Shown: in pieces, positions 3,001 through 64,000 of the stretch
Position numbering within the stretch: the stretch's first letter is position 1
Layout of the letters: each line of letters opens with the position of its first letter
Assembly: GCA_011033025.1 (NCBI GenBank)
Contig: WFMF01000158.1
Location: forward strand, 310,001-374,000
Length of the DNA stretch: 64,000 nucleotides
Direction: 5' to 3'
Source: Beroe forskalii
Lineage: Eukaryota > Ctenophora > Nuda > Beroida > Beroidae
Notes under the pieces: model-generated
Databases searched by the model: none
What the model saw: only the letters and a program-made list of their open reading frames with translations
Told to the model about the DNA's origin: nothing
Program-made: the position numbers and the translations under genes

Positions 3001-6000
3001 TAACCCTCCCACTCCACAAAACCACGTGGTTGCGCGTAAGACGCCCGCCGCCGACACCCACTCCACACCCTCCGAGCACCTCCGCAAAACTCCTGAGGCG
3101 GGGCGGCGCCCGCCGCACTCTGCGAACTACGTGCAGCGGAAGATGAGCGCGCCGTGCAAGAACAACAGCGGGGGTTACGAGGGGAAGCCTCGGTATTACA
3201 CGGCGGGGAAAAGGACGGGGGAGCTCAAGATAGACACCAGTACCAGGTAAATGGGAGGGGGGTTGCAAACACCAGTACCAGGTCAAGAGGGGGGGTTACA
3301 ACCACCAGTACTAGGTATAGAGGGGATGGAGTTGCAAGGTTTACCAGGGTGTCAGCTCTTCACCTCCCAAGGGGAGAGGGGTCACATTATAAAATTCTGA
3401 GGTGTCAATTCTACCCCTCTAACAGAGGAGGGGGAGTTGACAGTGTCAAATTTTTCTCCCCCACCCCCTAAATGACGGGGGATCATTCTGTCAACGAGCT
3501 GGTTACCTTTCAAGCTTTTTCATCCAATTACATTTCACCGCTACAGAGAACCTTCCGTTTGAATTACCTCAATATCTGGGGTGTTTTGACTTTGAGGGGT
3601 TTTGACGCAGCTGGTTTTGAATGCTGACCCAGCTCAGACTCCGTTTCAGTGACACCAACAAGTCTACACCCAAAACCCCGAACCCCAAGTCCGCCCTGAC
3701 TCGGCTGGTGGAAGAGAAATACATTGACCACAAGCACAAACACGCGTGGAGCTTCAAAAGCGACAGGAGAAAATCCGAAGACACCCTCAGGTGAGGGGGA
3801 ATAGCAAGAGTGTTGTTGTGTTTGCGCCACTTGATATTTTCAGACATTTCTGGTCCCACAGTATGAGTATGACCTATCGTGATTAAAGTGATATCACCCC
3901 CCTCTCAGTTGGGTTTTTAGGGATGTTGTTGTGTTTTTGCGCCACTCAATCTTTTCAGATATTTCCCACGGTGTGATATCGTGATTTTAGATTTAAGTAT
4001 AAGTCATATCTCCCCTCTCAGCTGGGCCACAAGTAGGTCACGGCAGAGTAAAGCTGACAAGAATAACCCCGAACTACCCAACATAACTCAGAAGGCATGT
4101 GCCTCCCAAGTCAGCAAGGTTAGTTTTGATATGTTCTTAAAATTACAGGCCTCTTCAGAAGTAAGCTAGTTAGCTCTAGGTATTTTGATGGATCCTTTTA
4201 TTCCAAGTGTGATGAAACAGGTGCTGTAACAAGTAAGTTTGAACCCCAAAACACCCCCCCATTCCTACTTAACTTGACGGCTGACGCTCTGACAATGACT
4301 CATTTTTCCCATTTGCCTGACACATTCCCACTTTGACACATTCCTCCTATTCCCAGTTCCCACTTTGCCTGAACCCCCCTCCCCCCTCGTTATCCAGCAT
4401 AATTTCTTGTATATTTTAGTACCCATCCTTCAGGCTGAGATTTGGAGTCTGAAATAAGGTGAAATTTCTTTGACGAAGAAATGAAACTTTTGTTGAAAGA
4501 ATCATTGCAAAAAAAACATGTTTATTACACAAAAATTTGGTAAGATGAAACACCTTTACGTGAATCTGTAAATGCAACATTTTTGAAGAAAAAGCTCAAA
4601 TCTAAATTTAATACAGTCATTTTCTCTTGCAAGTTAACAGTTCATGTTGAGGCTAGAGTGACCGGGACTATGTTTTGGGCTGCCTCCGTACGGTTTATAT
4701 TTCAGATAACACATTCGGCTGTTCAGATTGTAGGAGATGGCCGCGCAACTTCTTGTGTCCCTGCAAAACTGCTCACACTGGCTGAAATCGTTTAATATAC
4801 GTTGACTGATATCTGCTTTGTCGTAGTCTGTATTGTCAGCTCTGCAAGATTGGTCCGACGTGTTGTTACAGTTCATGTTCATGCTTGTCTTTGCGACTGC
4901 CAAATAAGGTCCGTCGTATCCTCCCTCTATGCTTTTTAGCCAGCATTCTTGATATTTCTCCCTGTAAGTTGAAATCAAATCTCTCTGTCTTGTTAAAGAG
5001 CCATCGAATTGAACATTCTCGATTTTTTAAATTTACAAATCTCTTCGTTTACACAAATAATTTGTATTTAATGTGGCTGACAGCACAGAGAAAATTATTA
5101 ATGATTATTTTAGACTTATAAACTTACATAAAAGTAAAGGATTTACAGTCGGGCAAATCTTTGCAAGCACTGTAGCAAGACTCAAGCCTTGCTGTAGGAT
5201 GAAGGAGCTTTATGTCCTGTCCAGGAAAATCCACTCCAAATCTTACACACTGTGCGTCAAAAGCAAACCCACTGGTTAAGGAAAGTACAACAACCAACGA
5301 CTTTATCGCAAACATCACTGTGGGGTTAGCAGCTATCAAATAAGGCCGGAGAAAATAAATGTGGTTTGTTTGAATGGTTATTATGATTTATATGTTGTCG
5401 GTGGGTGGAGAATTATCGTGATTAATGCTTACTCAAAGTAAGTATTGCCCTTCAAACGCCCTCACAGTCGCATTCAGAACAATAGATTCTTGGGACGCTT
5501 ATCAGGTGGTATCGGAAAATAGCAGCTCAACCAATGAAAAGCTCGGAAAATAGCAGATCGACCAATGAAAAGCTTGGAAAATAGCAGCTCAACCAATGAA
5601 AAGCTCGGAAAATAGCAGATCGACCAATGAAAAGCTTGGAAAAAAGCAGCTCAACCAATGAAAAGCTCGGAAATTAGCAGATCGATCAATGAAAAGCTCG
5701 GAAAATAGGAGCTCAACCAATGAAAAGCTCGGAAAATAGCAGCTCAACCAATGAAAAGCTCGGAAAATAGCAGATCGTCCAATGAAAAGCTTGGAAAATA
5801 GCAGCTCAACCAATGAAAAGCTCGGAAAATAGCAGCTCAACCAATGAAAAGCTCGGAAAATAGCAGATCGACCAATGAAAAACTCGGAAAATAGCAGATC
5901 GACCAATGAAAAGCTTGGAAAATAGCAGCTCAACCAATGAAAAGCTCGGAAAATAGCAGATCGACCAATGAAAAGCTTGGAAAATAGCAGATCGACGAAT

Positions 6001-25300: not shown

Positions 25301-27521
25301 TATAACTTAAATTTATATCGAATTAAGTGATGAAAGCCAAAATTATGAGCAATGATTGTTTCAAATGTTTGATAAATTAGATCATTCTAATTTGATAATT
25401 CTAAATACTTAATTATAATTCTAATTCATTAACTTAACTTATTTTTATTTAAATACCTTAGACTTTCTAATTGGGCAAATTATTATTTGAATTTTTGCTT
25501 TCTAGTCATTGCCTACCACACAGTATGAGCCTAAGTTATAAATTAGCCGATATTAGTAACATATCATATGTTTTGATTGATCTTTTGTCAGGCCCTGCTC
25601 TTATTACGGTTTCATACTGTGTTGCAGGTTTAGCCTCAATTATGGGGGTTATTTTATAATATTTTATCAGATATTATCCCAGATGATATTGTAAGATAAT
25701 TCTATTTAATTGAAATTTTGAAATAAAAAAAAAATAAACAAGATAACATAAGATTTATACACTGGTGTATCGTAATGGAGTGAGAGAATTGACTAAAAGT
25801 CAGATTGAAATGATTTTACATAGTAAATAAATACGAATAACAAAATTCTAAAGTTTTGATTTTTGGGGTGTGATAATTCTTCAAAGGTGTGATAACTGTT
25901 CTTTGAGGGGTGTGATAACTGTATAGTTATCACACACCTGGAGAAATTATCACACCCCAAAAATTTCGAAAATTTTAAAATCTTATGAAAATTATTAATT
26001 GACCCCTAAACTCCATTTTTGAAGCCGTTATATAACAATAATTATCAGAGCAAGAATTATATAACGATCGTTATATAATAATGCTTTGTTCACTCACCTG
26101 GCGCGCACTCTGGTGGCCCTTCTGGACCCCTGTATTTGACTGACGTCAACTTGTCGTTGTTTTTGCCTAAGTCAAGTCTACGTTCTTCAGGACACAAACT
26201 CGTCATTAGGTTTTTGTAGTTCTCGTCTCTGTAGAGGTCCCAGGCTCCTCCATAGGAGTATGCGCTGCTGACTTCATCGTTCCATTTCTCCCCAACGTTG
26301 GGTTCATCCGTGTACAGCTGCTTTACTTTATCATTTGACCCACGATCATCTTTGTTTAACTCTTTGTCCCAATATAGAAACAGTCTTTCTGAAATATTTC
26401 TATCTTAAACTCTTGAAATCACGCCCAATATACTAATATAGATACAGCACTGAGATATTTCTATCTAGAAACCACAGAAGTGCTGTACTCTGCAGAACTT
26501 TATTAGCGGGCATATCCAGGGGGAAGGCGACACAGGCGACCGCCTCCCTCTTTTCGGGCAAAGGTTGTGAAACTTTTGTAATGATTAGAGCTTGGAGCCA
26601 AGCAAAATTAGCCATTCGACAGGTTTTGAATGTAACTCATTAACTCGCCGACCCATTTGAACCAAAAACCTGGCTACGCCTCTGAATTCACTGTCAGGTA
26701 CACTGGTAGAAACCCTCTCCCCGTAAGAAAACTTCAAATCCAATGCAGCAAATTCTGTCATTTTGAAAGCTTGTTTTGCTTCATTCATTGGTTCTCCTCT
26801 AGACAATCTGGCTTAAAAATGCCCTGGGATGCTTTATAGGCCAATAGAAGTGAATATTCGATTCGTTCATCACAGAAATAATTTCAGGGTTCATTGGGCA
26901 ACTTGGTACTCTGCCGACGGAGGCTCACGGACCCTTGACGGGCCCTTCCCGGACCCTTCCCGGACCCTTCCCGGGCCCTTCCCGGACCCTTCCAGGGCCC
27001 TTCCCGGACCCTTCATGGACCCTTCCCGGACCCTTCCCGGGCCCTTCCCGGACCCTTCATGGACCTTTCATGGGTCCTTGACGGAACCCCTCACGGACCC
27101 TTCCCGGACCCCTAACGGGAAAATTAAGACAAGGTTCATGCAAAGGACTGTTAGGGGTCCGGGAATGGTCCGTGAGGGGTCCATGAAGGGTCCGGGAAGG
27201 GTCCGGGAAGGGTCCGTCAAGGGTCCGTCAAGGGTCCGTGAGCCTCCGTCGGCATAGTACCAAGTGTAAGCGCATGTCACACAAATATTTTTTATTGGTA
27301 ACATCCACTCTCCAGGCCCACCCGCTAATTTGGCAGTCCCACTGTTGCCACCCAAGTAAGCTTATTGCAACCCCCTCCAGTACTCTGGTAATAAGACTCT
27401 TACCAGAACAAGTATAGAACACGATGGCATGTCAAAATGGTTAAATCAACTCACGAGCTCTCCTGCCGAACGTGGGAGTCACGAGGACAGCCAGAACCAA
27501 TAGGATAGCTCTACACAACAT
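19345..27521 (-). CDS. Secreted beta-gamma-crystallin domain protein, four exons, one frame break
   Basis: Exons on the minus strand: 27521-27455, 26388-26098, 19787-19648, 19544-19345. Phases agree at every junction (GTGAGT donors for the first two; CAG acceptors). Exon 1 encodes a signal peptide starting MLCRAILLVLAVLVTPTFG. The rest gives four Greek-key-like motifs, that is two beta-gamma-crystallin domains: exon 2 has RLFLYWDKEL and AWDLYRDENY...NNDKLTSVKY, exon 3 has HKLVLFSDEKYDDHELI and WNNKAKSVQ, exon 4 has GNWYLYDKPNQKGSY and GYLKKAISSVKPFG. Such proteins often bind calcium; a structural or secreted role is inference. In exon 4 a (TG)5 tract at 19476-19485 shifts the frame, while four TG units would keep it, so this copy is mutated or misassembled. 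Intron 2 is 6.3 kb and full of transposons. Exon 1 is the last unit of a minisatellite. Confidence 0.8.
19858..20042 (+). repeat. About 61-bp tandem repeat, three units, each self-complementary at its ends
   Basis: Units begin ACAGCCAATGAGA and end TCTCATTGGTTAGTGTGTACTAATC. Within each unit CCAATGAGA pairs with TCTCATTGG, so single strands can fold into a hairpin. Located in intron 2 of the crystallin gene. Confidence 0.75.
20150..20327 (+). mobile_element. Palindromic MITE, about 175 bp
   Basis: Terminal inverted repeats of about 30 bp: AATCAAACACCC then TTAGGATACGTTTATAT at the left, matched by ATATAAACGTATCCTTAGGG and TGTTTGATT at the right. The core holds three copies of GAGC(C)GAAG(G)CGAGTG flanked by ATAATT. 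No coding capacity. Confidence 0.75.
20728..21257 (+). repeat. About 120-bp tandem repeat interrupted by a LINE
   Basis: Four units starting GTGCGCGGCTCATATAATGA and containing CATAAACTCATGAAACCA, GTATACACTGATGTA and CGTAATGGAGTGAGAGCAAG. The array resumes at 25738-25790 (AACAAGATAACAT, TACACTGGTGTATCG, TAATGGAGTGAGAG) on the far side of the LINE, showing that the LINE inserted into it. Confidence 0.85.
21258..23285 (-). pseudogene. LINE endonuclease and N-terminal RT segment (inverted part)
   Basis: APE-type endonuclease motifs in order: FYNNVQGL, VILNESW (catalytic Glu), GGGVLIAHR, LLIGDLNFPEIRW and ASDHFGIQF (catalytic Asp-His). After a frame change near 21855 the RT fingers follow: SSKAAGPDGIHGMVLK, WKLASIVPVHKKGDKG, NYRPISLT. 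Upstream of about 23285 the minus-strand frame merely reads the antisense of the RT part and is not protein. Disabled by the inversion. Confidence 0.8.
23285..25064 (+). pseudogene. LINE reverse transcriptase palm to C terminus
   Basis: Frame from FEKCIRKEL: QHGFINGKSCTTQL, YFDFAKAFDSVSHDLIL (first catalytic Asp), SGVPQGSILGPLLF, LYADDTKIW (catalytic YADD), then C-terminal RRPLNG-type linker. The frame is split at 24346 by a 439-bp nested insertion and resumes at about 24786 (LIPIDLPPHFS, FFYRTMMLWNNIPFEI) to a stop at 25062-25064. Confidence 0.85.
24347..24785 (+). mobile_element. Nested SINE-like/non-LTR element inside the LINE RT
   Basis: The RT frame reads QIINR before and LIPIDLPP after this block, so about 439 bp were inserted. 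It begins CTAGCGTTTGCCCGCGAAG and ends with (CAGA)n followed by TTATTAATATAGA, end types widespread in invertebrate non-LTR and SINE-like elements. A short duplication (ATAGA) may flank it. No coding capacity seen. Confidence 0.6.
25855..26085 (+). mobile_element. Palindromic repeats (GTGTGATAA and TTATATAACG types)
   Basis: At 25865-25965 GGGGTGTGATAATT pairs with AATTATCACACCCC, with an inner GATAACTGTATAGTTATC palindrome. At 26030-26075 TTATATAACGATCGTTATATAA is a perfect palindrome. The GTGTGATAATT word is shared with the MITE at 20150. Likely remnants of one or two MITEs. Confidence 0.5.
26901..27265 (+). mobile_element. Foldback element with GACCCTTCCCG minisatellite arms
   Basis: A 365-bp near-perfect inverted repeat in intron 1 of the crystallin gene. 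Outer ends ACTTGGTACTCTGCCGACGG and CCGTCGGCATAGTACCAAGT pair. The arms are 11-bp tandem units (GACCCTTCCCG on the left, CGGGAAGGGTC on the right). A short AT-rich loop at about 27118-27150. No protein. Target-site duplication not evident. Confidence 0.75.
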
Positions 27522-45939: not shown

Positions 45940-46113
45940 CCAAAAGGAGGGCAAAAAGAGGGCATGAGAGGGCGCCCTCTCAAAAGGAGGGCAGTTCGGA
46001 AGCTATGGTAAGGCAAACTTTGGCAAACTATGGCAAACTTTGGCAAACACTTTATTTGGCAAACTCCAAAAAAAGTGGAAGCATTTGCCAAAGTTTGCCA
46101 AAGTTTGCCAAAA
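45940..46113 (+). repeat. AGGAGGGCAAA block and TTTGGCAAAC inverted-repeat unit, left copy
   Basis: GGAGGGCAAAAAGAGGGCA and its partner TCAAAAGGAGGGCAG, then GGCAAACTTTGGCAAACTAT repeated and followed, after a CCAAAAAAAGTGGAAGC centre, by the inverted GCCAAAGTTTGCCAAAG. The second part recurs in the same orientation at 49296-49420. Confidence 0.75.
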
Positions 46114-46469
46114 ATAAAACACCTTTTTAAGCACTTTGGCAACACTTTAGGTACCCATAATATGCTTTTCAAGGATGCTGAATCGATTTCAAAGGTCTAT
46201 TTCACATTTTGACGTTATCCAGAAGCTGTAGCAGAGACCAAATCCATATTGGATAGAGTAGAAGGCTACAGTAACAAGTTGTATGCATTTAAGTACTAAG
46301 TAATCCAATCAGTTGTATGAAGCCCTGAAACCGAAACATCCACGTTACATAAGTCTGTTCCAGCAGCCTAAAATCAATAGTAAGGCCCCACCATGACCTT
46401 TGAGCAGTTTTCATGGATTCCTGCAACATAAGCCGACATAACGGTGTTGAGAATGCTAATTGCCTAGTG

Positions 46470-49130
46470 AAGGCTGAATGGCGTCTAGTGGAGGACGAGT
46501 GGAGCCTATTGGAGGCTGAGTGGAGCCTAGTGGAGGCCGAGTGGAGCCCAGTAGAGGCTAGGTGAAGCCTAGTGGAGGCTGAGTGGCGCCTAGGGGAGGT
46601 TGAGTAGAGCCAAGTGGAGGCTTAGTGGAGGCTGTGAGGAGCCTAGTGAAGGATGAGTGGCGCCTAGTGGAGGCTGAATAGAGCCTATTGTAGGCTGTGT
46701 GACGCCTAGATGGGGCTGTTTGGGGCCAAGTGGAGGCTATTGTTGCCTAGTGGAGGCTGAATGGAGCCTAGTGGAGTTAGAGTGGAGCATAATGGAGGCT
46801 GTTTGGAGCCTACTGGAGCCTAGTGGAGCCTAGTGGAGGCTGAGTGAAGCCTATTGAAGGCTTAGTGGAGGCTGCGTGGAGCCTAGTGAAGGATGAGTGG
46901 CGCCTAGTGGAGGCTGAGTGGAGCATAATGGAGACTGCTTGGAACCTAGTGGAGCATAGTGGAGACTGAGTGGAGCCTAGTGGAGGCTGGATGGAGCAAA
47001 AAGGAGGCTGTCTGGAGCCTACTGGAGGCTAAGTGGAGCCTAGTGGAGGCTGGGTGAAGACTAGTGGAGATTGAGTGGAGCCTAATGAAGGCTGTGTGGA
47101 GCCTAATTGAGGCTGAGTGGAGCCTAAAGACTGCTGTGTGGAGCCTAGTGGAGGCTGAGTGGAGCCTAGTGGAGGCTTGGTGGAGCTTAGTGGAGGCTGA
47201 GTGGAGCCTAGTGGAGGCTGGATGGAGCCTAGTGAAGGCTGAATGGAGCCTAGTGGATGCTGAGTGGAGTCTAGTTGCGGCTGTGTAAGGCCTAGTGGTC
47301 CAGTGGAGGCTGAGTGGTGCATTATGGAGGCTTAGAGGAGGCTGAATGGAGCCTAGTGAAGGATGAGAGGAGCATTGTTGAGGCTGAGTGTAGCCTAGTG
47401 GAGGCTGAGTGGAGCCTAGTGGAGGCTGAGTTGAGCCAACCGGAGGCTTAGTGGAGCCTAGTGGAGGCTGAGTGGAGCCTAGTGAAGGATGAGTGGCGCC
47501 TAGTGGAAGCTGAGTGGAACCTAGTGGAGGCCAAGTGGAGGCTAAGTGGAGCCTAGTGGAGGCTAAGTGGCGCCTAGTGGAAGCTGAGTGGAACCTAGTG
47601 GAAGCCAAGTGGAGCCTAGTGGAGGCTGAGTGGTACATAGTGGAGGCTGTGTGGAGCATAGTGAAGGATGAGTGGCGCCTAGTGGAGGCCAAGTGGAGGC
47701 TGAATGGAGCCTAGTGGAGTTGGAGTGGAGCATAATGGAGGCTGTTTGGAACCTAGTGGAGCATAGTGGAGACTGAGTGGAGCCTAGTGGATGCTGGGTG
47801 GAGCATAATGGAGGCTGTTTGGAGCCTACTGGAGGCTGAGTGGAGCCTATTTGGGGCTGTTTGGAGCCTAGTGGAGGCTGTTTGGAGCCTAGTGAAAGCT
47901 GAGTGGAGCCTAGTACAGGCTGTGTGGAGCCTAGTGGAGGCTGAGTGGAGCCTAGTGGAGGCTGGGTGAAGCCTAGTTGGGGCTGTTTGGAGCCTAGTGG
48001 AGGCAGGTGGAGCATGATGGAGGCTGTTTGGAACCTAGAGGAGCATAGTGGAGACTGAGTGGAGCCTAGTGGTGCAAAAAGGAGGTTGTTTGGAGCCTAC
48101 TGGAGCCTAGTGGATGCTGGGTGAAGCCTAGTGGAGATTGAGTGGAGCCTAATGAAGGCTGTGTGGAGCCTAATTGAGGCTGAGTGGAACATAGTGGTCA
48201 GTGGAGACTGAGAGGAGCGTAATGACTGCTGTGTGGAGCCTAGTGGTAAGTGGAGGCTGAGTGGAGCCTAGTGGAGGCTTGGTGGAGCTTAGTGGAGGCT
48301 GAATGGAGCCTAGTGTAGGATGAGTGGAGCCAGGTGGAGGCTTAGTGGAGACTAGTGGTCAGTGGAGGCTGTTTGGAGCCTAGTGGAGGCTGGGTGGAGC
48401 CTATTGAAGGCTGAATGGAGCCTAGTAAAGGCTTAATGGAGCCTAGTGGAGGCTGAGTGGAGCCTAGTAGAGGCTGAGTGGAGCCTAGTAGAGGCTGGGT
48501 GGAGCCTAGTGGAGGCTGAGTGGAGCATAGAGGATGCTGAATGGAGGCTAGTGGAGCCTAGTGGGCCTAGTGAAGGCTACTTGGTGCCTAGTGGAGGCTG
48601 AGTGGAGCCTAGTGGAGGCCAAGTGGAGGCTGAGTGGTGCATAGTGAAGGCCGAGTGGAGGCTGAGTGGAGGCTGAGTGGAGGCTGAGTGGACCTTATTG
48701 GCGGCTGAATAGAGCCTATTGGAGGCTGAATGGGGCCTAGTGGAGGCTGGGTGGAGCCTTGTGGAGGCTAAGTGGAGGCTAAGTGGAGGCTAGTGGAGAC
48801 TGAGTGGAGGCTGAGGAGAGCCTAGTGCAGGCTGAATGGAGAGTGGAGACTAGTGGAGGCTGAGTGGAGCCTAGTGGATGCTGAGTGGAGCCTAGTTGAG
48901 GCAGGGTGGAGCCTAGTGGAGACTAAGTGGATCCTAATGGAGGCTGTTTGGAGCCTAGTGGAGCCTTGTGGAGGCTAAGTGGAGCCAAGTGGAGGCTGGG
49001 TGGAGTCTAGTAGGGACTGAATGAAGACTTTTGGAGGCTGAGTGGAGCCTAATGGATACTGAGTGGTACCTTATGGAGGCTGGGTGGAGCCTAGTGGAGA
49101 CCGGGTGGAGGATAGTTGGAGCTGTCTAGG
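46470..49130 (+). repeat. 21-bp minisatellite, 2.7 kb
   Basis: About 125 imperfect units of GTGGAGCCTAGTGGAGGCTGA. The unit length is divisible by three, so both strands give long repetitive frames (Ser-Thr-Arg-Leu-His type on minus) without any start, domain or codon signal. Not coding. It is bounded on each side by a TTTGGCAAAC inverted-repeat unit. Confidence 0.93.
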
Positions 49131-49295
49131 CGTGAACACCAGTAGAGCCTCGTGAACACCAGTAAAGCCTCGAAGGAGAAGGTCTGAATAAAAATTAAGC
49201 ATTGGAAATCGATTCAGCTCCCTCAAAAACCATTATGCACACGTCCTGCATGCACAGTGGACACGAAATCAGAAATAACAAAATTTTTGGGGTAT

Positions 49296-49420
49296 TTTTG
49301 GCAAACTTTGGCAAATTTTGGCAAACTTTGGCAAACTATGGCAAACTTTGGCAAACACTTTTTTTGGCAAACTCCAAAAAAAGTGGAAGCGTTGGCCAAA
49401 GTTTGCCAAAGTTTGCCTTA
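49296..49420 (+). repeat. TTTGGCAAAC inverted-repeat unit, right copy
   Basis: Near-identical to 46013-46113, including the CAAACTCCAAAAAAAGTGGA centre, same orientation. It ends in a C run next to the end of the inverted BTB duplication. Confidence 0.8.
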
Positions 49421-51318: not shown

Positions 51319-52050
51319 GTGTAGAAAGTGAACCTGCATGAATGTCATGTTAGGAAAGTAACTAACCAAGTTAGTTACTTTCCTAACATGAAATTCAGGT
51401 AAATTGAGCGATCCGTCGAGGCCAGTATCGCGCCAGTATCACGCCAGTACCGCGCCATTATCAGGCCAGTACCACGCCAGTATCGCGCCAGTATCAGGCC
51501 TACCTCACGCCGTTATCACGCCAGTATCACGCCAGTATCGCGCCAGTAGCACGCCAGTAGCGCGCCAGTAGCAGGCCATTAGCGCGCCAGTAGCACGCCA
51601 GTATCGCGCCAGTAGCACGCCAGTATCGCGCCAGTAGCACGCCAGTATCGCGCCAGTAGCACGCCAGTATCGCGCCAGTCGGAACTAACTTTAAGCCAGG
51701 ACGCCAGTAACACGCCAGTATATGATCTGAAACTGGCGTGCTACTGGCGTCCTGGCTATAAGTTAGTGTCGACTGGCGTGATACTGGCGTACTACTGGCG
51801 TGCTACTGGCGCGGTACTGGCGTGATACTGGCGTGATACTGGCGTGCTACTGGCGCGCTACTGGCGTGCTACTGGCGTTCTACTGGCGTGCTACTGGCGC
51901 GATACTGGCGCGATAACGGCGTGAGGTAGGCCTGATACTGGCGCGATACTGGCGTGTGGTACTGGCCTGATACTGGCGCGATACTGGCGTGATACTGGCC
52001 TCGACGGATCGCTCAATTTACCGAAATTCATGCAGGTTCACTTTCTACAC
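51319..52050. mobile_element. Palindromic MITE (about 99 bp) split by a foldback insertion
   Basis: Arms TGTAGAAAGTGAACCTGCAT and GTTAGGAAAGTAACTAAC pair with GTTAGTTACTTTCCTAAC and ATGCAGGTTCACTTTCTACA around a three-base loop. The right arm is cut by the 625-bp element at 51398. Pieces of the same MITE (AGTGAACCTGCATGAAT) occur upstream of copies 1, 3 and 5. Confidence 0.75.
51398..52022. mobile_element. Foldback element with GCCAGTA(T/G)C minisatellite arms, 8-bp TSD
   Basis: Ends GGTAAATTGAGCGATCCGTC and GACGGATCGCTCAATTTACC are exact inverted repeats. Both arms are 10-12 bp units, GCCAGTATCAC/GCCAGTAGCGC on the left and the complement on the right, with a loop near 51690-51750. The direct repeat GAAATTCA flanks it (51390-51397 and 52023-52030). 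An uninterrupted GAAATTCA occurs at the matching place upstream of copy 3 (37425). No coding capacity; superfamily open. Confidence 0.88.
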
Positions 52051-58933: not shown

Positions 58934-59975
58934 ACAGTTCCGATCATAGGGGATAGAGAGAAGTTTAAGACCTTGCTATATTCAATAATCATGCCGTCTT
59001 ACATCTAATGTCATAATGAACGACCAACCTCACTTTTCTCTCATCACATATTTCCTCACCCCACTCCACATAGCCTTCCCTCTTGTTAAACTCTGGTCTG
59101 CCACCCCAAGACATACCCATGTTATACCAATCATTTTTGTAGTACTCCTCGATGACAAGGTGCATCTTAGCACTGCTTATCAAATCTCTGTGACAGTGCA
59201 AGTCAGAAGGATAGTCACCATCAACAGTGGAAAGCTCAATATTAAACTTGCCAGTTTCTTCCTTTGAAACTGGTGTTACCCTCAAAATAAATCCACATTT
59301 TGAGTCCTGAGTGGAGCATTGGGGTAATGTGGCTATGAAATGATAACACTTTTTAGTGGTGACCAAGGCTTTGAGTGTCGTTGTTTCACAGCTGGTGATA
59401 ATTGTGGTGTCACTATCAGATATCACTGATTCTGGTAAATGTTCGAAGTGTTGATGAGTGTCTAATTAAAGCTTCTAGAGTCGTTGTTTCATAGCAGGTA
59501 ATAATTGTGGTGTCAATATCTGATATCACTGATTCAGGTAAGTGTTCTAATTTATCAGGAGGTAACAATCTCTCATTAAAGTATGTAGAAACTCTGCATA
59601 GAAACTCTGCATAGAGACAGGTCAATGTATAAGTCTGATGCCTTTTTCAGCATCATAATTGCGGTCATAGGATGGGGTTCCCAATAGTTCACAAATTCAA
59701 GAAACATGAAGATGTTGATACCAGGCAAATGGTGCCTCAAGGCATCAAAATTATCTTTATATGCAGCTTTAAACTCCTTCACTTCATGAAATAAGTTCGG
59801 TATTGCAGCATAACCAGGCAAAATCTCATTGGAATGAACAACACTGGTGGATGTGCTTCCATGATTCCTTACTGCTCGATTCAGATTCATCAAAAGTTCC
59901 AAATCCTCAGCATTCATATTACCAAACTGATTTAACATCATTTTATAAATTTCATCATACAACTGTGATTCACTC

Positions 59976-62900
59976 TAGTAAGGGATTGACCCGTAACCCC
60001 CTGTGAACTAAATCCTCCCAAAGATGTTAGAACGTTTTTCGGTAGTTCATAGGTCATAGAAACCCCTAAGAAAGTTATCCAAAAATTCCTTGGGGAACCT
60101 TGATTTTTACCCTTTTTACCCGCGCGTGGGTTAAAACTTTAAATGGCGATATCTCGGCTTTCTTTTTGAGATACGGAGCTCAACAACCACACCAAAATAT
60201 GCGCAATAGACACATTTAGTTGGGCGGGTCATGGTCCCAGGTCGCTATTTTGAACCGTTTTCGAGATAATCGCCAAAAACCCCTTTTTCGCTATGCGCAA
60301 AGGGGTAAAAAAGTGGTCCCGGTAAATACAGCTGTACTGTAGGTAAATTGGCACTTATTATGATCACAGACACGTCTATCAGTTCTTTATAGCCGTAAGT
60401 AAAACCAGAAAAAAGTTATCCAAAAAATTCCGTAATTTAACCCCCTTTTCACCCCTTTTTCAAACCCCCGCGTAAGCCAAATTTTCAAATAGGGATATCT
60501 CGGCTTCCTTTTGAGATACGGAGCTCAATAACCAATTTAAAATATGCGCAATGGGCACATTTGGTTGGGCGGATCATGGTCCCAGGTCGATATTTTGAAC
60601 CGTTTCCAAGATAATCGCCAAAAACCCCTTTTTCGCTATGCGCAAAGGGATAAAAGTGGTCCCGGTAAATACAGCTGTACTGTGGGTAAATTGGCACTAA
60701 TTATGATCATAGACATGTTTATCAGTTGTTCATAGCCTGGAGTAACACCAACATAAAGTAATCCAAAAAATTCCATAATTACACCCCCTTTTCACCTCTT
60801 TTTCAAACCCCTGTGTAAGCCAAATTTTGAAATTGGGATATTTTGACTTTCAATTGAGATACCTACAGAGGTCAACAACCACTCTAAAATGTCTAGAATG
60901 AGCACATTTGATGGGGTAGAACAAGGTTGCAAGTTTCTATCTCATATCTCATATCGATTTGATGGAATTTGGAATTTTTTTACCAAATTCAGGGGCTAAA
61001 CGTATGAAAGAGGTCAAAATACGTCTTAGGCGAGTCATCATTTTGATATATAATGACCATTTCTGATTGACCATTCGTGGTATTCAGGTAGAATTTTAGA
61101 GCTGGCCATACCATAAAGCAAATCCACATAAAAACCCTCACAGAGCAAACCCACCCATAAAGTAAACTGCATAATATTTAGGATGAAAATTCTGTGATAG
61201 ATGTACAGTAATCATGGAAAGTATGGATACTCTAAATGAGACCATTCATCATAATGACACTTCAATATTTTGACCTGGGCCAAACAAACACTGTTGAAAT
61301 GAAAATACAAAAACAAATTCCACTTGCATTTTAGGAAGATGTTGTCCCAACATATATGATTTTTCAGATTGGATTCATTCCTTCCGGTAGAGAGCCATGC
61401 TCAAATATTATCCTGCCAAACGTACTGGCCAGGAAAGGTGGGGGTTTCTACGGAATCTAATGTCAATTAGACAATGCATAGATGGCCTTAAAAAGCATCA
61501 ATTTCGTGCTCTTGCCTCAATAATGTATTCAACATAACTTGTCCATTCATGATTTCGCATTGCAAGCAATTGTCAACTTTCATTATGGATGGTGGCATAT
61601 GGCTGGCCACAAACCACAGTTCTATTTCTGTGAGTCTAGCTGGGCGTTGGAGTATGGTTACCATAAATGTATAAATGGGTATGCCCTTATACCTTGGATT
61701 TTGGAATGGTTTCTCAAGAATTGAAGTTGAAGGTAAATTCCCAAGCACTTACCCACCTGAAAAAAATATGACTCTTCAAGCAGATATTAATCCCAACTCT
61801 GGCAGCAAGGAAGATATGGGATATACTTGGTTGGATATATACCGTGTTAAAACACTTTTTAGAGAATGACATCATGAAAGCAACTATCTAACATCCATGA
61901 GGCTTATCTGATAAAGAGAGAAGCTTTGGCAAACTGTCAAAGAGGACAGAAATTTCCTTACTGGCAGCAGTTATGTTGTTTATTGTTGCAAGCATGATTC
62001 TGTGTGCTTTCTGTTGGAGAAAGAAGTTCAGAAACCTCATGGGTTTGAAAGATAAGTAGCATCTAAATCTGAAGGACCCTTATAAGATGAAAAGAAGTGA
62101 TTTTAGTTGCTTATTTTGTAATATCGAAACTGAAAATTACTGCTTCCCCATTTCAGTACGATGTATTTATGGATTATAATAGTGTTTTATGTTTTGTTAA
62201 CAATCAGAAATGGTCATCTTATGTGAAAATGATTACTCGCCTAAGACATATTTCGACCTCTTTTATACGTTTAGCCCACTGAATTTGGCAAAAAATGGGG
62301 GTTTTTGAAATTTTCATCAAATTGGTATGATATAAACACTTGAAACCATGTTTGTTTCAACCCACCAAATGTGCTCTTTCTAGACATTCTAGATTGGTTG
62401 TTGACAGCTGTAAGACCTCCGTATCTCGATTGAAAGTCAAAATATCCCAATTTAAAAATTTGGCTTACGCAGGGGTTTAAAAAAGAGGTGAAAAGGGGGT
62501 GTAATTATGGAATTTTTTTGGATTACTTTATGTTGGTGTTACTTCAAGCAATGAACAACTGATAAACATGTCTATGATCATAATTAGTGCCAATTTACCC
62601 ACAGTACAGCTGTATTTACCGGGACCACTTTTTACCCCTTTGCGCATAGCGAAAAAGGGGCTTTTGGCGATTATCTCGAAAACGGTTCAAAATATCGACC
62701 TGGGACCATGACCCGCCCAACCAAATGTGACCATTGCGCATATTTTAAAGTGGTTATTGAGCTCCGTATCTCAAAAGGAAGCCGAGATATCCCTATTTGA
62801 AAAATTTGGCTTCTGAAAGGGGGTTTGAAAAAGGGGTGAAAAGGGGGTTAAATTATGGAATTTTTTGGATAACTTTTTTCTGGTTTTACTTTCGGCTATA

Positions 62901-63325
62901 AAGAACTGATAGACGTGTCTGTGATCATAATAAGTGCCAATTTACCTACAGTACAGCTGTATTTACCGGGACCACTTTTTTACCCCTTTGCGCATAGCGA
63001 AAAAGGGTTTTTGGCGATTATCTCGAAAACGGTTCAAAATAGCGACCTGGGACCATGACCCGCCCAACTAAATGTGTCTATTGCGCATATTTTGGTGTGG
63101 TTGTTGAGCTCCGTATCTCAAAAGGAAGCCGAGATATCGCCATTTAAAGTTTTAACCCACGCGCGGGTAAAAAAGGGGTAAAAAATCAAGGTTCCCCAAG
63201 GAATTTTTTGGATAACTTTCTTAGGGGGTTACTATGACCTATGAACTACCGAAAAACGTTCTAACATCTTTGGGAGGATTTAGTTCACAGGGGGTTACAG
63301 CCTGGGGCAGATACATCCCTTACTA
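59976..63325. mobile_element. 3.35 kb foldback element inserted in BTB copy 6
   Basis: Ends TAGTAAGGGAT and ATCCCTTACTA. Long inverted arms (about 59976-61075 and 62200-63325) share TAACCCCCTGTGAACTAAAT and GGAGGATTTAGTTCACAG. Each arm holds three tandem units of about 342 bp marked by AAGTTATCCAAAAA, GATATCTCGGCTT, GGTCCCAGGTCG and CGCTATGCGCAAAGG. A loop of about 1.1 kb (61080-62195) is not repeated. Uninterrupted copy 4 reads CACTCACC here against CACTC-element-TCACC, so a 2-bp (TC) duplication is implied. No transposase seen. Confidence 0.88.
61325..62059 (+). pseudogene. Gene-like fragment in the foldback loop, membrane-protein C terminus
   Basis: Not recognised. Three plus-strand frames have protein-like composition: about 61337-61460 (PTYMIFQIGFIPSGREPC), about 61675-61869 (LGFWNGFSRIEVEGKFPS) and 61905-62059. 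The last reads KRTEISLLAAVMLFIVASMI then LCAFCWRKKFRNL and stops. It has a hydrophobic segment followed by a short basic tail, like the end of a type I membrane protein. Stops and frame changes separate the parts, so this is a decayed or exon-mosaic fragment, possibly captured host sequence. Confidence 0.4.
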
Positions 63326-64000
63326 TCACCATACATTGAACTACATCTTCATTAGATAAAATGGTGTGAATGGTATCCACAATTCCATCTGTAAGAAGAT
63401 GCTCTTTAACAGCTTGTAGAACTGGGATGAACTGTCCACAGCATATTTCTAGTAGCTGGTTCAGAGTTGCTGGCTTTGTGCTCGTGAAATATTCACTGAG
63501 GTATGGTCCCACAAACAATTCCGACATTTTTTCAAATTTTGAAAATGTGGTTACTACTATTTCCATTAACTTTCCACATTTTAGAGAATTTTCTGAATAG
63601 ACAGCCTCATTGAAAAGAAAGACCATGTCATTGAAATCATGTGAGGATGTCTCACAGAATTCTGTGAATGCAGCAATGCATTTTTCAGACAACCATTTCA
63701 CTTTGAAAACATGAGATATCTTATAAATTTCTCTGAAATGAGACCTTTTCACCACAATATCGCCACTGTAAAGGCTTTCAAGAAGAATCACTGCAGCTTC
63801 CTTGGAAAAGTCTTTCAGCTCTACTGTACCCTGTCTAAGTTCCTTGAACAAGTGTGTAAACACCTCACTATTCCATGAGAGAATTAAAGAGCTCGCCTTC
63901 ATGGAAGTGGAATCTTTGAATTCCACAGTGATATTGCCATGGAATTCGTCATAAAGGTTCTCTACACCGAAGTCACATGGAACTGATACCTTAGCCACAG

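Follow-up and report, generated by a model that had tools for sequence, protein, structure and literature searches.

The loops of foldback transposons are usually regarded as empty, variable, or holding a transposase or stray host DNA. Among such elements, Galileo and Drosophila FB make target duplications of 7-9 bp. Foldbacks of this kind occur as subfamilies, some of them without any transposase sequence according to the accessible part of the report (PMC3573991), and for Galileo the available text places THAP-domain sites near the element end and within the tandem repeats (PMC3688188). Tetris of D. virilis is a non-autonomous foldback that its authors assign to Mutator and for which, in the available sections, no transposase was found (PMC4079207), and Tc4 of C. 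elegans is described in the excerpt available as a fold-back DNA transposon that duplicates TNA inside CTNAG (PMC11071193). Additionally, Pack-TIRs, elements with terminal inverted repeats (TIRs) that carry captured host genes, occur in animals, for example Ssk-FB4 of Drosophila in the accessible portion of its description (PMC8277862). In this study we analyze a stretch of 64,000 nucleotides from the ctenophore Beroe forskalii (assembly GCA_011033025.1, contig WFMF01000158.1, positions 310,001 to 374,000 of the forward strand; hereafter the window), in which a foldback element disrupts a BTB-family gene. We conclude that this element is probably a non-autonomous foldback DNA transposon whose loop is the relic of a membrane-protein gene belonging to the element lineage itself.

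Like Galileo and FB, the element has long inverted arms with internal tandem repeats and is one of several subfamilies; unlike them, its family makes a duplication of 3 bp rather than 7-9 bp, shows no transposase in the copies seen and carries a membrane-protein gene in its loop. The first-pass annotation, made from the sequence alone, had already remarked that the element does not fit foldbacks with 9-bp or 7-bp duplications (FB, Galileo), and the family-wide duplication bears this out. As far as the accessible account of Tetris extends, the two share a non-autonomous foldback form, modular tandem arms and a transposase that has not been found, but in Tetris the duplications are 8-10 bp long and the middle varies and has no apparent coding capacity, whereas here the duplication is 3 bp and the gene remnant is constant. 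The fold-back shape and 3-bp duplication are also those of Tc4, although Tc4, in the available part of its description, duplicates TNA inside CTNAG and TNA makes up only 9 of 33 duplications here. Like Ssk-FB4 as portrayed in the accessible text, the element is a TIR element that carries a protein gene and exists in multiple copies; in contrast, Ssk-FB4 has a known host parent and is a young family, whereas here no parent was seen and the gene is common to diverged subfamilies. Among the literature matches listed, mostly open-access full text, we found neither foldbacks or other DNA transposons with membrane or envelope genes nor a comparable foldback with a 3-bp duplication; as evidence of novelty this is weak. 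One membrane-protein gene, shaped by selection, is common to several foldback subfamilies whose arms have diverged, so that a dependence of some DNA transposons on a surface protein becomes testable. These subfamilies also offer a clear case of conserved ends with a fixed left/right asymmetry.

A foldback family with paired left and right ends

The element spans window positions 59976-63325 (3350 bp, plus strand, left or L end first), as delimited by its matched ends and arms and by alignment with 12 copies having both exact ends. Its left terminus TAGTAAGGGAT begins at 59976 and its right terminus ATCCCTTACTA ends at 63325, so that both ends read TAGTAAGGGAT inward, and TC flanks the element on its left (59974-59975) and right (63326-63327). 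The arms are about 1.1 kb each, the left at 59976-61069 (plus strand) and its inverted copy at 62201-63325 (minus strand), and are 93.3% identical over 1094 aligned bases. Both contain tandem units spaced 341-347 bases apart in mirrored order, with arrays at 60134-60862 in the left arm (plus strand, period 343) and 62417-63148 in the right arm (minus strand, period 347). Between the arms lies a loop (61070-62200, plus strand) that is unchanged among the family copies examined, which completes the build of a foldback. The empty site is represented by the two closest (around 50567 and 33613) of five paralogous stretches in the window, where the flanks are joined without the element, and comparison with these gives a 2-bp duplication in the window copy. 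The first-pass annotation of a foldback with a readable empty site, with arms of about 1.1 kb and repeats of about 342 bp in mirror order, is therefore confirmed by the ends, the arms and two paralogs. Folding of the first 140 bases was no more stable than that of shuffled versions, so no terminal hairpin is claimed, and a promoter scan was uninformative.

We searched the genome (216 Mb in 1134 contigs, the window being on contig C201) for further copies and scored 40 of 490 candidate places. Among these were 15 additional near-full-length copies with identities of 91-96%, plus one with 90%, which excludes chance as the source of the foldback. In an alignment of 14 copies (the window copy, 12 with both exact ends and the end-truncated L027), loop identity averaged 96.6% (93-98%). 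Arm-to-arm identity was 89-94% in 13 of these copies versus 98.5% in L020, which suggests gene conversion between the arms of the latter.

The exact end pattern occurs 83 times in the genome, as 42 L ends (59976-60015 in the window, plus strand) and 41 right or R ends (63276-63325, minus strand), the two types diverging immediately inside the common terminus TAGTAAGGG. Neighbouring inward-facing ends less than 20 kb apart paired L with R in 32 of 32 cases for the window family, and in 66 of 67 when the related TAGTAAGGGT..GTGAACTAAATA set was added. The outer 95 or so bases at each end are near-invariant across the 13 copies with exact ends, as is an inverted pair of motifs, GTGAACTA ... TAGTTCAT, in a subterminal position at each end (60003-60050 at the L end, plus strand; 63241-63288 at the R end, minus strand), which may be a transposase site.

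Target duplications were compared in 34 elements with both end motifs, drawn from four sets of ends. This sample omits nine loci without a detectable end pair as well as L001-L008 (mostly the same copies as L013-L018 and L027), the split copy L028/L042, L056-L058 and L060-L062. An exact 3-bp duplication was found in 33 of the 34, the window copy with its 2 bp being the sole exception. Exact ends and a duplication of constant length in dispersed copies are the marks of a TIR-type DNA transposon. The duplicated triplets are A/T-rich without a fixed sequence (TTA or TAA in 7 of 33), and insertion would have proceeded by cut-and-paste with a 3-bp staggered cut at such triplets. Comparison of other copies, as the first-pass annotation had proposed, gave the same loop in those examined and left the 2-bp TC duplication reported there valid for the window copy but not for the family; this copy may originally have had 3 bp and lost one base. 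Copies enlarged to 5.6-16 kb by inserts keep one outer 3-bp duplication, and because their outer ends still bear this single match we take the inserts as nested. One insert in L011 (C183, 2231-6791) is a 4.5-kb palindrome whose two strands have the same open reading frames (ORFs), and it may be a further foldback that inserted into the loop. In L040 (C625), positions 3097-3578 are a 482-bp deletion derivative that belongs to the family, is flanked by an AGT duplication of its own and is nested in another copy.

A looser end pattern (502 matches at no more than one mismatch versus 297 for a reversed control; the first 100 of the 502 places were listed) revealed further end sets, with TGATC and GGATC for L and GTATC for R. 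Seven elements of the TGATC/GGATC type have the same foldback build, 3-bp duplications and arms 70-81% like those of the window family. The end set TAGTAAGGGT..GTGAACTAAATA accounts for nearly all of 155 matches, against 0 for the control, and among the first 100 of these ends paired L with R in 34 of 35 cases, the other being L with L. Relative to its ends, the loop in L049-L051 is reversed compared with the window family, which fits an inversion between the arms. In the C181 element (L059), the arms measure about 1.08 kb and are 95.9% identical, the duplication is CCT and the loop gene is in two open pieces. Finally, C210, C318 and C569 hold close mutual copies with foldback arms of a different kind (95.9% identity over 1259 aligned bases in C210). 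The same loop gene is found in foldbacks of four sets of ends.

The loop gene and its origin

What the window loop contains of a membrane-protein gene is its C-terminal part in broken form (61281-62035, plus strand, in pieces at 61281-61475, 61495-61863 and 61850-62035), as detected by tblastn with an intact 283-residue frame from contig C458; the resemblance to the end of a membrane-protein gene noted in the first reading of the sequence thus holds. The ORFs of L049, L051 and L053, together with longer relatives, constitute one protein family. Its members include open frames of 283 residues in C458, 314 in C318 and 229 in C210, that of C458 adjoining an arm and a TGATC end at its near side, the side that was fetched. 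Six cysteines are common to these three frames, each of which has three to six N-glycosylation motifs, and a single strongly hydrophobic C-terminal segment is present in frames that reach the C-terminus (C458, L053 and the second piece of L059); the C318 frame ends before it. The predicted product is a membrane protein whose outer part is rich in cysteines and bears the N-glycosylation motifs.

We next consider whether this gene belongs to the elements. Matches to the C458 protein numbered 147, at 96 loci, 51 of them within the range of contigs for which the end lists are complete (C1-C398). Of these 51, 43 are within 5 kb of an exact end, although such space makes up 0.7% of the genome. The other eight comprise one inside a long C239 pair, the end-truncated L027, two of the C318/C210 set and four that were unexamined, so that 47 of 51 are in or beside foldbacks. 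Across all 96 loci, at least 60 are within 5 kb of a listed end. These numbers establish association but not the independence of 51 events, because the window family itself weighs heavily in the sample.

Differences from the C458 gene were counted by codon position (1/2/3) in a frame-blind alignment with that gene as reference. They were most frequent at third positions in L051 (0.24/0.18/0.44), L049 (0.25/0.20/0.44), L059 (0.47/0.35/0.61) and the C318 gene (0.44/0.37/0.66), and the arms were flat across codon-phase positions in four comparisons (for example, 0.24/0.26/0.24 for L051). Because the subfamilies diverge mostly at third positions and the tested arms are unbiased, the gene has been under selection at the protein level. 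Nonsynonymous (dN) and synonymous (dS) divergence were 0.30 and 1.45 for the distant pair C458 and L051, a low ratio, and nearer neutral at 0.10 and 0.13 for the close copies C318 and C210; some sums in this dN/dS calculation count overlapping pieces. The pattern is that of a gene selected in an active lineage and decaying after insertion. With the C458 gene as reference, 13-14 of the 14 window-family copies have two in-frame stops in common, as well as several indels that break the frame. The gene was therefore broken before this family multiplied, and what the window family carries is, judging from these lesions, dead cargo. The protein may once have served the element, and the window family, with its own gene dead, would presumably have been moved by protein made elsewhere.

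An alternative origin lies in the host, in which case a foldback would have taken up the end of a membrane-protein gene, perhaps in a single event before all the subfamilies separated, and carried it as a passenger in the manner of Pack-TIRs. Such elements are known in animals, including Ssk-FB4 in the available text (PMC8277862), and most copies have in their loop no more than the protein's C-terminal part. However, no parental copy outside a transposon was seen among the 51 loci, 47 of them examined and found in or beside foldbacks, and the gene was under selection while the subfamilies diverged. The missing N-terminal part points the same way. An N-terminal extension (107 residues of C569) has 29 matches in the genome, including 12 at 33-40% identity; compared by eye with the listed foldback ends, eight of these 12 lie in them or at most 1.5 kb away, three fall on contigs that the end list does not reach and one is about 5 kb off. 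FB4, the element of Ssk-FB4, is itself a foldback. Capture was the origin implied in the first-pass annotation, which named a constant, transposon-specific loop as the observation that would count against it. Because the loop is constant, shared with diverged foldback subfamilies and selected between them, this is largely what the examined copies present, and we now consider capture unlikely.

Several observations do weigh against the main reading, a non-autonomous foldback with a gene of its own lineage. Third-position bias is weak between C458 and the window loop (0.31/0.27/0.38) and absent between C458 and L054 (0.25/0.26/0.21), as expected after decay but without lending support, and the arm control covers four comparisons, with none for L059 or C318. 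The C210 copy has different ends and showed no clear target duplication. A host ancestor of the loop gene is possible, with four of 51 loci unexamined and 45 of 96 on contigs beyond the complete end lists. Furthermore, no transposase-coding copy with these ends was seen among the copies read, several long L/R elements being unread, and a DDE_1 ORF in the C396 copy sits in a loop insert that is presumably nested.

As to the identity of the loop protein, Pfam gave no significant match, although a few fell below threshold, among them Herpes_UL73, to which 15 residues of the C458 frame align at E 0.19. Sequence and profile searches of the PDB gave none either, one match being at chance level (E 0.49). 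No relative was found in viral contigs by a peptide-pattern scan, nor in phage records. Envelope proteins of insect retroelements and baculoviruses have an architecture resembling a cysteine-rich outer part with one C-terminal hydrophobic segment, and fusogen-bearing Mavericks exist. It is conceivable, though we would not bet on it, that a small DNA-transposon lineage has long kept a surface-glycoprotein gene as its own cargo, possibly envelope- or fusogen-like and aiding movement between cells or hosts. If true, this lineage would be a very small counterpart of the fusogen-bearing Mavericks.

A putative transposase that moves the family

We propose that a transposase supplied in trans would recognise one L and one R end, which differ just inside their shared terminus, with the subterminal motif pair as its candidate site. 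The tandem repeats of the arms may add binding sites, as the accessible text reports for Galileo (PMC3688188). In the copies that were read, the large inserts have ORFs that amount to low-complexity arrays, the palindromic insert, fragments that by eye resemble reverse transcriptase (no Pfam match for the one piece scanned) and one DDE_1 ORF. The last, at 5292-7490 of L037, lies within the loop of the C396 copy, which is 11.9 kb long; its 733 residues include a DDE_1 and a Psq helix-turn-helix domain, and we take it to be pogo-like.

CACTA/EnSpm elements have CACTA/G termini and are ruled out by the termini TAGTAAGGG, and Drosophila FB and Galileo (P superfamily) by the length of the duplication (3 bp versus 7-9 bp). 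A search with Transposase_21 (PF02992) gave no match, with controls equally silent. The same was true of PF07592, which we understand to model Zator, a superfamily with a 3-bp duplication. In the available descriptions, duplications of 8-10 bp rule out Mutator-type foldbacks (PMC4079207) and TNA within CTNAG, against TNA in just 9 of 33 here, rules out Tc4 (PMC11071193). None of these four fits, and Harbinger and Zator remain as candidates.

Of three tested superfamilies with 3-bp duplications, only PIF/Harbinger had transposase matches in the genome, with 35 for DDE_Tnp_4, seven of them with open frames of 363-426 residues. This superfamily makes 3-bp duplications that are mostly TTA or TAA. 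The window family could accordingly be a non-autonomous PIF/Harbinger derivative, a proposal that concerns the mover and is compatible with an element-borne loop gene. The length of the duplication and the presence of these transposases are in its favor, but TTA or TAA accounts for a mere 7 of 33 duplications and none of the 35 matches is within 95 kb of a listed end (lists complete to C398 or C473, depending on the set), and we regard such a derivation as quite doubtful. A satellite-like or assembly-driven inverted duplication, which the tandem repeats of the arms and other inverted minisatellites in the window might suggest, is refuted by the exact ends, the 3-bp duplications, the dozens of dispersed ends and the paralogous empty site.

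The disrupted gene and the rest of the window

The gene content of the window includes BTB, PAN, hydantoinase and diphthamide synthase genes. The interrupted BTB-family gene lies on the minus strand, with its 3' part at 58989-59973 and its 5' part at 63328-64000, where it reaches the window end; 94 bases directly beside the insertion have matches at five further sites of the window. Its 3' part is itself split over two frames, so the insertion is not the sole damage to this gene. It belongs to a cluster of BTB-family paralogs at 32936-64000 in which three have open frames of 515-527 codons and others are broken; the BTB domain was confirmed in the one paralog tested.

Additional inverted repeats occur elsewhere in the window. 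A second, smaller foldback-like element at 51321-52048 has short inverted ends GTAGAAAGTGAACCTGCATGAAT and arms made of inverted 11/22-base minisatellites, GCCAGTATCAC / ACTGGCGTGAT. At 26901-27265, arms of an inverted 11-base minisatellite, CGGACCCTTCC / GGGTCCGTGAA, are 84% complementary over 135 bases. Finally, the region 46012-49356 contains a 2.6-kb array of a 21-base unit bordered by the short inverted arrays GGCAAACTTT and TTTGGCAAAC.

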